Position numbers and translations under genes: made by a program. Shown here piece after piece: positions 60,716 through 64,000 of a DNA stretch of 64,000 bases; the stretch's first letter is position 1; each line of letters opens with the position of its first letter. Origin of the DNA: an uncultured Bacteroidales bacterium (lineage in GTDB: Bacteria; Bacteroidota; Bacteroidia; Bacteroidales; Salinivirgaceae); assembly GCA_937981765.1 (NCBI GenBank), contig CALJOM010000002.1:248001-312000 (forward strand). The letters run 5' to 3'. The notes beneath the pieces were generated by a model. That model saw only the letters and a program-made list of their open reading frames with translations. It did not search any database and was not told the DNA's origin.

Positions 60716-62596
60716 ATGGAAGCTACTCAAATTTTAAAAGTTTTAATGATTGATGCCGCTACCGGATACTATAAAATTCAACGCTATAAGCTGGGCGATT
60801 TCTTTGGTCCGGTTGATTTAGGAATTCATCTAAGCTACAAGTACAACAGCCTGAATATTGGAACCGGACTTTTGGCCGGTTCGATATTTCCGGGATCAAA
60901 CCGGTTGATATTTTCCGGCATGTCGCCCTGCTGGCACGGCTTTTACATTTCGTCAATGGGAGGAGCTGGTTTGGTTTTCGATAACCTGGGTATTAACTTA
61001 CTGTCGATTCACGGCAAGAGCGCCATTCCATCAATACTTTATCTCAACCGCAATCACGGGGAGGATGTTGAGGTGGAGCTTCTTCCGGTTCGCCGACGGG
61101 AAATTTGGAATTCGGGCCGAAGGGGCGTTTATGCGGTTATGGAGAAAGCCATGGAATATTTTGGGCATCGATACGAAACCGACCCACGTGTTTTGGCTAC
61201 CGGACCAGCATCTATGTATACCGATTTTGGAGCTATTGCTTCTGCGCCGACTAAAGACGGGAAAATCTCGTATGTGGATACTTGGGCCGGACGTGGTGGC
61301 CTGGGAACCAAAATGCTGATGGAACACGGCATAATGGGAATTATCTACGGTGGTACTTACATTGACGATGATTTTCGCGACAGAAAAGTGGCCGATCAAT
61401 GGTTTGAAGATAAATACAACCAGAAAATGGTGGCCAAAAACCTCGAAGCTACCACTAAATATCGTTTCGACCCTAATTTCAACACCGGTGGAACGTTTGG
61501 AGTTAATTTCGCCACTATCGAAGAACGAATAATTGCTTTCAATTATCGTACAATATTTATGACCAAGGAGGAGCGGTTGCGTATTCACCGCAATTTTGTT
61601 GTTGACCACTATCTGAAGCAGTTTAACGAAGAAACCATCCAAACCAAACAGCAAAAGACTTGTGGAGAACCTTGCCCAGCGGTTTGTAAAAAGATGCGCG
61701 ACAATTTTAAAAAAGACTACGAACCATACCAAACCATGGGGCCTCTTTGCGGAGTTTTCGACCAACGGGCTGCCGAATTACTGAACCATCACGCCGACAC
61801 TCTAGGTTTCGATGCTATCTCTGTGGGCGGAGTGCTTGCCTGGCTTATGGAGTGCCTGCACGAGGGGTTGCTTGCGCCCGAAGATTTAGGAGTTAGCACA
61901 AAACCTGTATTTACTCCCGAAAATTTTCGCCTGGTGGAAGATTCTATGCACAATGCCCGGTTAGGAGTTGAACTAATAAACCAAATGGTTCAGGAAAACG
62001 GAAAAATTGATCTTTCGCTTGGTGTTCGTCGTTTCGGGCGTCATCTGGCGCGTCAGAAAGGACGTGCTATTCTCGATTGCTTTGTTTTCACCTCTTTTGC
62101 TCGCCGTGGCTGGATGGTCCCTAATCAGTATTGGACCCCAGGTGTGCTCTCCCCAATGGCAATTATGGGTAAATATTATAACCATTACGGAAAAGAATTT
62201 ATCCCTCCCCGTGAACTTGGTCGAATCAATGCCCGGCGAATGATGGCGGAACTCACTTTGGACAATCTCGGTGTATGTCGTTTCCATCGAAGTTGGGCCG
62301 AGGAAATAATGCCCGATATTATTGATAAACTCTTTGGCTTGCGAAACGAATACCTTCAATCGGTGAAACTCATTGCCAGCAGAATTCACAGCCGAAACGC
62401 TTCGGTGTTCTGGGAAAGCCGGCGAAATATTGATTTTGTTTACTACTATTTGAAAAAATTACGCAACGAAGACGGAGTTAATCACCCGGAACTGATCGAA
62501 TGGTTAGCCCGATTTGAGGAAAATTGCACCCAGGCCGCCTTCGATTTCTGGTACGAAATTCACAAAGGTGCTCATGAATTGTTGCGCGAGTTTTAG
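60716..62596 (+). CDS. Aldehyde:ferredoxin oxidoreductase (AOR) family protein
   Basis: The 626-residue cytoplasmic protein has the AOR N-terminal domain (GTGLLAGSIFPGSNRLIFSG, SSMGGAGLVFDNLGINLLSIHG, VLATGPASMYTDFGAI, GRGGLGTKMLMEHG). The C-terminal part carries a 4Fe-4S cysteine set, C316-x3-C320-x3-C324 with C521 in LDNLGVCRFHR. The canonical Pyrococcus AOR spacing is Cx2Cx3C. The family uses a tungsten or molybdenum bis-pyranopterin cofactor and oxidises aldehydes or related substrates, reducing ferredoxin. The substrate here is unknown. The cofactor pathway is not in the window. A methionine at codon 11 is an alternative start. Confidence 0.9.
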   Translation: MEATQILKVLMIDAATGYYKIQRYKLGDFFGPVDLGIHLSYKYNSLNIGTGLLAGSIFPGSNRLIFSGMSPCWHGFYISSMGGAGLVFDNLGINLLSIHGKSAIPSILYLNRNHGEDVEVELLPVRRREIWNSGRRGVYAVMEKAMEYFGHRYETDPRVLATGPASMYTDFGAIASAPTKDGKISYVDTWAGRGGLGTKMLMEHGIMGIIYGGTYIDDDFRDRKVADQWFEDKYNQKMVAKNLEATTKYRFDPNFNTGGTFGVNFATIEERIIAFNYRTIFMTKEERLRIHRNFVVDHYLKQFNEETIQTKQQKTCGEPCPAVCKKMRDNFKKDYEPYQTMGPLCGVFDQRAAELLNHHADTLGFDAISVGGVLAWLMECLHEGLLAPEDLGVSTKPVFTPENFRLVEDSMHNARLGVELINQMVQENGKIDLSLGVRRFGRHLARQKGRAILDCFVFTSFARRGWMVPNQYWTPGVLSPMAIMGKYYNHYGKEFIPPRELGRINARRMMAELTLDNLGVCRFHRSWAEEIMPDIIDKLFGLRNEYLQSVKLIASRIHSRNASVFWESRRNIDFVYYYLKKLRNEDGVNHPELIEWLARFEENCTQAAFDFWYEIHKGAHELLREF

Positions 62597-62711
62597 ACAC
62601 AATCTTCTAAAGTTCCAATTACCGGTCTGAATCCTGCAAGCTCGTTTTTTAAGCTTTCAACATTACGAGTAACATTTATTATGTGCGGATTTTTTGATTT
62701 TTTATTAAAAG

Positions 62712-62749
62712 CGATTATCTTGTAATCGAAAAAATGATTATAATATAAT
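62712..62749. promoter_or_regulatory. Two tandem palindromes GATTA-N5-TAATC, candidate operator
   Basis: GATTA-TCTTG-TAATC (62712-62726) and GATTA-TAATA-TAATC (62735-62749) share identical half-sites and spacer length, with centres 23 bp apart. The second is a perfect 15-bp palindrome around a central A. They end 15 nt before the dnaE-type start codon, where a repressor would block transcription. Confidence 0.6.
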
Positions 62750-62764
62750 CAAAAACTACGCCCT

Positions 62765-64000
62765 ATGCTTTTGGCATCGCACAGCTATTACAGCCTGCGT
62801 TACGGGGTTCTTTCACCACGGCAGTTAGTGAAAGTGGCAGCTAACGCCAGACACCCGGTGATTACGCTTACCGATATCAACAACGTTACCGGAGTATTTG
62901 AATTTGTGAAAGCCTGCAACGAATATCGCATACATCCGGTTGTGGGGATAGAATTTCGTGTTGGCAGCCGGTATCTTTATTCAGGAATTGCCAGAGATAC
63001 GGAAGGCTTAGCCCGTTTGAACGAATTTCTTTCGTACCACACCCTAAACGGCATTCCTTTACCGGTGCGGGCGCCAAGTCTCGAACGTTGCTTTTGGATT
63101 TATCCATGGAACAATTTCCCTCCAGATACCTCCGATGTCGAATATCTTGGGGTAACGCTTGCCGATCGAGGAAGGCTACTCACGGCCAGCCGTAAACAAC
63201 TCTCGAAAATGGTAATTCGCCAGCCGCTTACGTTTACCACCGAGCTTGGATACCGGTTTCATCAGCATCTGAGAGCTATTGACCAAAACATGCTGCTCAG
63301 CAAACTCGATCTTGGCTTAGCGGCATCGCCCGATGATTGTTTGCATACCCCAACGGCACTTAAGGAAGCATTTGAGACCTGGCCCCAACTTTACGCAAAT
63401 ACTCAGCGTCTGCTGTTGCAATGCGATTTCCGATTCGATTTTGACACTCCGAAAAACAAACAAACCTATACCGGCAGCCGTTCCGACGATCACATCCTGT
63501 TGCGAAAATTAGCCTATGAAGGCTTTGCCTTGCGATACGGAAACGGAACCCCGTTTGCAAAAGAGCGGCTTGAGCAGGAACTGCAAACCATTTGCAACCT
63601 TGGATTTGCAGCCTATTTTTTGATTACCCGCGACATTGTTAACTATAGCCTTTCCCACGGCATCTATCATGTGGGAAGAGGAAGTGGTGCTAACAGTCTG
63701 GTGGCCTATTGTCTTCGGATTACCGATGTAGACCCTATTGAACTGAATCTCTATTTTGAACGCTTTATAAATCCCAACCGATCGTCGCCACCTGATTTCG
63801 ATATCGATTATTCATGGCGAGATCGCGATCGAGTTCTCGACTATATCTTTAAACGATTTGGTTCGCGCCATACAGCATTGTTGGCCACGATATCAACATT
63901 CCAAACCAACTCCGCAATCCGGGAACTGTCGAAGGTTTATGGGATACCTAAAGAAGAAATCGACCGACTGATATGCGATCTTCACAACAACAAACCTAAA
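62765..64000 (+). CDS. dnaE: DNA polymerase III alpha subunit (DnaE-type), N-terminal part
   Basis: The frame stays open from the ATG at 62765 to the window edge (412 codons). The N-terminal PHP-like domain (SHSYYSLRYGVLSPRQLVKVA, VITLTDINNVTGVFEFVKAC, IHPVVGIEF) has lost several metal-binding residues, with TDIN instead of TDHG, so it is probably inactive. The polymerase part has GFAAYFLITRDIVNY, HVGRGSGANSLVAYCL and the catalytic aspartates in PPDFDIDYSW (D344, D346). The catalytic motif lies about 57 residues earlier than in E. coli DnaE. This fits the shorter second DnaE (ImuC/DnaE2-like) seen in Bacteroidota, by inference. Two palindromes precede the start. Confidence 0.9.
   Translation, partial: MLLASHSYYSLRYGVLSPRQLVKVAANARHPVITLTDINNVTGVFEFVKACNEYRIHPVVGIEFRVGSRYLYSGIARDTEGLARLNEFLSYHTLNGIPLPVRAPSLERCFWIYPWNNFPPDTSDVEYLGVTLADRGRLLTASRKQLSKMVIRQPLTFTTELGYRFHQHLRAIDQNMLLSKLDLGLAASPDDCLHTPTALKEAFETWPQLYANTQRLLLQCDFRFDFDTPKNKQTYTGSRSDDHILLRKLAYEGFALRYGNGTPFAKERLEQELQTICNLGFAAYFLITRDIVNYSLSHGIYHVGRGSGANSLVAYCLRITDVDPIELNLYFERFINPNRSSPPDFDIDYSWRDRDRVLDYIFKRFGSRHTALLATISTFQTNSAIRELSKVYGIPKEEIDRLICDLHNNKPK

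Follow-up and report, generated by a model that had tools for sequence, protein, structure and literature searches.

Twin GATTA-N5-TAATC palindromes before a stand-alone dnaE gene of a Bacteroidales bacterium, very probably sites of a phage-like S24 repressor

The closest described relatives of the locus reported here are the non-canonical LexA proteins of Bacteroidetes. According to the main text of Sanchez-Osuna et al. 2021 (PMC8565304) these are S24 repressors whose HTH is of the CI type and whose sites are CTAA-N5-TTAG or GGA-N5-TCC; they control dinB, dnaE and other SOS genes, and their regulon is induced by mitomycin C. That text reports both groups to be absent in Bacteroidales, accepts diverged half-sites as members (TTAC-N5-GTAA, for example), describes small regulons in diverged clades, and does not use the word "cooperative". 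A DnaE2B-PolY-RecA module has also been described in Bacteroidetes (PMC12926913).

The features considered here lie in the 64-kb stretch of DNA that was analysed (64,000 nucleotides, called the window below) and are as follows:

62693..62696, + strand: putative -33 element TTTG of the dnaE promoter, read from the sequence, 19 nt before TATCTTG
62713..62750, + strand: candidate tandem operator unit, 15 + 8 + 15 bp, 23 bp start-to-start; two genomic places, control 0
62713..62727, + strand: candidate operator palindrome 1, GATTATCTTGTAATC, exact pattern match
62716..62722, + strand: putative -7 element TATCTTG within palindrome 1, read from the sequence
62736..62750, + strand: candidate operator palindrome 2, GATTATAATATAATC, perfect 15-bp palindrome, exact match
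62765..64000, + strand: dnaE-like error-prone polymerase gene, running past the window (in full G000:C2:310765-313725, 986 aa)

The preliminary description of this DNA had pointed to two palindromes with identical half-sites and spacing near a start codon, and this is borne out: GATTA-N5-TAATC is present in two exact copies (62713-62727 and 62736-62750) that read the same on both strands and start 23 bp apart, with 14 nt between the second copy and the dnaE ATG at 62765. No further exact copies are present in the 64-kb window, and no phage records matched the operator region. A minus-strand open frame of 51 codons that overlaps the operator (window 62596-62748) was also considered and rejected; it has no start codon and no Pfam hit, its matches are chance ones that stem from the palindromes, and it is probably fortuitous or a remnant.

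The gene behind the palindromes encodes a DnaE with PHP, DNA_pol3_alpha, finger and HHH (helix-hairpin-helix) domains. A second, separate DnaE of 1211 aa, presumably the replicative polymerase, is encoded at G000:C6, and the 986-aa DnaE of the window is therefore presumably non-replicative. In relatives dnaE is found behind dinB, with the S24 gene divergent; in this genome dinB does not adjoin dnaE. The upstream neighbour of dnaE (window 60716-62596, + strand) encodes an aldehyde-ferredoxin-oxidoreductase-type enzyme (AFOR_N/AFOR_C) and scores under the cut-off of the archaeal GAPOR model.

Could the two palindromes have arisen by chance in intergenic DNA that is rich in A and T? Single sites alone might suggest so, as one-mismatch singles are common in the 2.317-Mb genome (116 vs 74 for the control, which was the reversed pattern). 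The exact site occurs seven times (control 1), and five of these copies lie beyond the window: the S24 promoter (below) has one, and the other four are in or beside unrelated genes that were named by eye as RpoB-like, TonB-type receptor, DAHP-synthase/chorismate-mutase-like and RelA/SpoT-like. Scanning for single sites is thus too noisy to define a regulon; single copies also lie at unrelated places, so that it is the 23-bp twin that carries meaning. With up to 3 mismatches allowed, the genome has just two copies of this 38-bp unit, one ahead of dnaE and one in the interval that separates dinB from the S24 gene, and no copy of its control; shuffled versions of the window's upstream region never came below 4 mismatches; and the twin is kept in 63 of the 77 related S24 promoters described below. 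These counts, the shuffles, the conservation and the order-level association with S24 genes refute a chance origin of the twin, which the preliminary description had already thought improbable and to which we leave a vanishingly small likelihood. Single copies do fall at unrelated genes, but the 23-bp twin does not show the random scatter through the genome that would have spoken against an operator.

The second twin (G000:C7:198174-198211, again 15+8+15, GATTAAATTTTAATC caaattta GACTACAATATAATC) lies between dinB, which runs leftward, and an XRE/S24 gene, which runs rightward (G000:C7:198243-199022). The latter is the one S24-peptidase gene found in the genome and our candidate for the repressor gene; its own promoter carries GATTA-N5-TAATC as a pair with the 5-bp spacer fixed, so that its half-site is GATTA and neither the CTAA nor the GGA of the two main groups. 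Since the sole other genomic twin stands at this dinB|S24 junction, and S24 promoters of relatives carry a twin as well, the earlier proposal of an operator for a local S24/XRE-type repressor with SOS-like polymerase control is, at the level of sequence, strongly supported. The expected company of Y-family polymerase, S24 or imuA/imuB genes was found in part: dinB and the S24 gene are there, but the polymerase partner appears to be DinB, as in a DnaE2B-PolY-like pair, and not ImuA/ImuB. The twin-bearing loci of this genome are dinB/S24 and dnaE only, and no box was found upstream of recA or SRAP in it, so the regulon appears to be small and not a full SOS regulon.

The S24 protein scores over the cut-off of PF00717 and matches HTH_3 (PF01381, a CI-type HTH) with 52 bits, and the winged HTH of canonical LexA (PF01726) is absent from its Pfam hits. 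Its predicted N-domain (residues 1-63, block pLDDT 84-94) consists of helices only with no winged helix, and the predicted linker and C-terminal helix (243-258, pLDDT about 56-58) are of low confidence; an additional alpha-helix at the C-terminus is one of the marks of non-canonical LexA. Structural matches are to LexA mainly via the C-domain (the peptidase part) and to the P22 c2/SinR type for the N-domain. Ala114-Gly115, Ser152 and Lys191 are invariant in 7 and in 30 homologue sequences. Among 20 promoters of more distant homologues from the class (36-40% identity), 7 have a perfect CTAA-N5-TTAG, which ties the S24 protein of this genome to the non-canonical LexA family; the recognition-helix region reads KRSTLSGYENG-VAQP in the GATTA group vs KRSLVGAYEE-RAEP in the CTAA group.

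Seven aligned S24 proteins served as the query of a scan that hit 80 loci; the genomes concerned belong to Salinivirgaceae, Marinilabiliaceae, Prolixibacteraceae and unclassified Bacteroidales (L072, from the window's own genus, is labelled Salinivirgaceae, a family that NCBI puts in Bacteroidales). The sequences are MAGs, and their promoters share ancestry. When the 77 loci with an upstream region were searched with up to 3 mismatches and gaps of 4 to 13, the twin was found in 63 of them, 57 at gap 8 and 6 at gap 9. Among 198 genomes of the order the twin (up to 2 mismatches) is present in 50 and the control in 4; 46 genomes have both twin and S24 gene, 4 the twin only, 39 the S24 gene only and 109 neither (Fisher P = 6.5e-17, a value that overstates independence because the genomes are related, so that positional evidence weighs more). 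The 39 genomes with an S24 gene and no twin at this threshold may have diverged sites, a gap of 9 or broken contigs. The positions are as follows: nearly all of the order-level twins that were fetched and have an identified neighbour lie at S24|dinB or before dinB, dnaE or SRAP (SOS-response-associated peptidase family; L177, L178 and L196), the exception being the extra twins of genome G115 (below).

Conservation upstream of orthologous genes, the check that the preliminary description had set, gave a positive outcome, in that the twin also stands before stand-alone dnaE genes of other families. Among the order-level twins, those of L158, L164, L195 and, with a small ORF between, L165 lie before dnaE. 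Eight dnaE genes, that of the window included, lie apart from dinB, and their twin is perfect in 3, degenerate in 2, weak in 1 and absent in 2; where dnaE is behind dinB there is none (0 of 12). The candidate operator thus occurs at dnaE genes that would have to have a promoter of their own. The ORF between twin and dnaE in L165 (L165:1237-1497, genome G048) has 86 aa and no Pfam match. The SRAP genes lie directly under or divergent from their twins (L196:2029-2066; L177 and L178 near 1501).

The arrangement of the sites relative to the promoters is also regular. In 58 aligned S24 promoters the site consensus is tGATTA-N5-TAATCa, with which the t/a flanks of palindrome 2 in the window agree; in 47 of the 58 the final base of the -7 box TAnnTTTG is the first G of palindrome 1, and the spacer of palindrome 2 is conserved as (C/T)AATA. 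In the dinB/dnaE direction the S24 promoters have TATATTG inside the palindrome, and the window equivalent is TATCTTG at 62716-62722. Promoters of Bacteroidota follow a -33/-7 consensus, and its application to the window would make TTTG and TATCTTG the core promoter of dnaE; the stand-alone dnaE promoters of L158, L164, L165 and L195 have a similar TTG/TTTG-N17-20-TAnnTT layout. With the operator so placed, a bound repressor would be expected to act by occluding the core promoter together with the start region.

Inverted repeats can alternatively work in RNA, as terminator, attenuator or leader hairpin, instead of as protein operators, and indeed each half can pair here, and over 15 nt one palindrome is 87% complementary to the other. 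A spacing that is fixed at 23 or 24 bp, a -7 box locked to the palindrome edge, a single array that serves both divergent genes, and A/T-rich stems with the T-run terminator pattern absent all argue for sites in DNA, and we hold a role in RNA to be highly improbable.

Does the spacing of the two palindromes extend beyond the GATTA half-site? A set of 49 S24 promoters from the class, most of them without GATTA, was searched for pairs of N5 dyads in which both members have the same half-site, whatever its sequence, at spacings of 16 to 40. At up to 3 mismatches, spacing 23 was found at 16 loci, each other spacing at 0 to 3, and the shuffled value was 0.3; the half-sites include GTTTA, GATTG, GTCTA, GCTAA, ACTAC and ACTAA. 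A peak at 23 in spite of such varied half-sites means that the tandem geometry seems to be older and more stable than the half-site. Adjacent operators among OR1, OR2 and OR3 of phage lambda are about 23-24 bp apart, centre to centre, and the fixed 23-bp tandem suggests cooperative pairs like those of lambda CI. We therefore lean towards a functional SOS box that is a rigid double operator, two N5 palindromes exactly 23 bp apart that two dimers would occupy cooperatively as in lambda. In class Bacteroidia its geometry would have stayed the same through repeated changes of half-site (GATTA, GTTTA, GATTG, GTCTA, CTAA, ACTAC). The likeness to lambda CI comprises the CI-like DNA-binding domain, the similar operator spacing and, presumably, RecA-triggered self-cleavage; unlike lambda CI, the protein described here is chromosomal and would repress polymerases and not a prophage, and it has two sites with no third, at which cooperativity is a conjecture from the spacing.

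The twin palindromes are, then, very probably the sites of a phage-like repressor that would hold mutation-prone polymerases off until DNA is damaged. More fully, we give a probability of roughly 0.9 to the reading that the twin is the operator of the stand-alone dnaE and is bound by the CI-like S24 repressor, a Bacteroidota non-canonical LexA, which would co-repress the S24 gene and dinB and be released by damage. The palindromes, the way they are spaced and conserved, and their association with S24, dinB and dnaE can all be read directly in the DNA; from these we infer binding by the S24 protein, repression, cooperativity, cleavage and damage induction as follows: Two S24 repressor dimers at a distance of 23 bp, over the core promoter and the start region, would block dnaE transcription, and the same protein would repress its own gene and dinB through the twin of equal geometry between them. 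Upon DNA damage, RecA filaments would cause the repressor to cleave itself at Ala114-Gly115 by means of the Ser152/Lys191 dyad, and dinB and dnaE would be released together for translesion synthesis.

A repressor that binds the twin but is blind to RecA and damage, and answers another signal or serves housekeeping, would accord with the lack of a box at recA and with a regulon that here seems limited to S24, dinB and dnaE. However, the Ala-Gly site and the Ser/Lys dyad are invariant in 30 homologues, the genes behind the twin encode translesion polymerases and, elsewhere in the order, SRAP, and the main text of PMC8565304 describes homologues as mitomycin-inducible, so we consider such a repressor unlikely.

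How does the proposed damage-released S24 system compare with those described? With non-canonical LexA, as presented in the main text of PMC8565304, it shares the CI-type HTH joined to an S24 peptidase, the conserved Ala-Gly/Ser/Lys residues, an N5 palindrome in its own promoter and (as proposed here) control of dinB and dnaE, but it differs in the GATTA half-site, the strict 23-bp twin, the Bacteroidales host and the small regulon without recA, in place of a broad SOS network that takes in recA. The Elizabethkingia anophelis site TTAC-N5-GTAA of the same text is similar in its diverged half-site, its N5 spacer and an S24 gene opposite an error-prone polymerase, and it is mitomycin-inducible; it has a different half-site and belongs to a Weeksellaceae paralogue, and that text describes no fixed tandem for it. 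In the DnaE2B-PolY-RecA module (PMC12926913) a DnaE2-type polymerase goes together with a Y-family polymerase that is active, and ImuA/ImuB take no part. This fits dinB and the dnaE of the window, but here dnaE has left dinB and has its own operator copy.

Relative to the main text of PMC8565304, GATTA looks like a new, third half-site (its Supplementary Table S10 may list it). Two further points also look new: that kin of non-canonical LexA occur in Bacteroidales, in Salinivirgaceae among other groups, and that a fixed tandem spacing of 23 bp holds throughout the class even where half-sites differ. Bacteroidales would thereby gain a defined candidate repressor with a third kind of box and a small set of target genes, although the main survey reports the LexA groups to be absent there. 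The conserved spacing could provide a motif-independent route to SOS boxes in Bacteroidota whose half-sites have drifted. It also suggests that mutagenic polymerases are under a cooperative switch of the phage CI kind. A dnaE that has parted from dinB and still has its own copy of the operator amounts to a natural experiment in support of joint control.

Several individual genomes deserve mention. G002, which belongs to the same genus and is 100% complete, has no S24 gene, no second DnaE and no twin, which suggests that the whole module was lost. G115 (L170, L183-L186 and L188) has seven twins, one at S24|dinB and the others mostly near genes without an evident SOS role; the extra twins often have the common spacer ATTTTTTT or its complement, and they may represent either a repeat that has spread through the genome or a wider regulon. 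In the twins of G099, G120, G183 and G200 one half-site is GACGA/TCGTC in place of GATTA/TAATC, apparently a recurrent variant.
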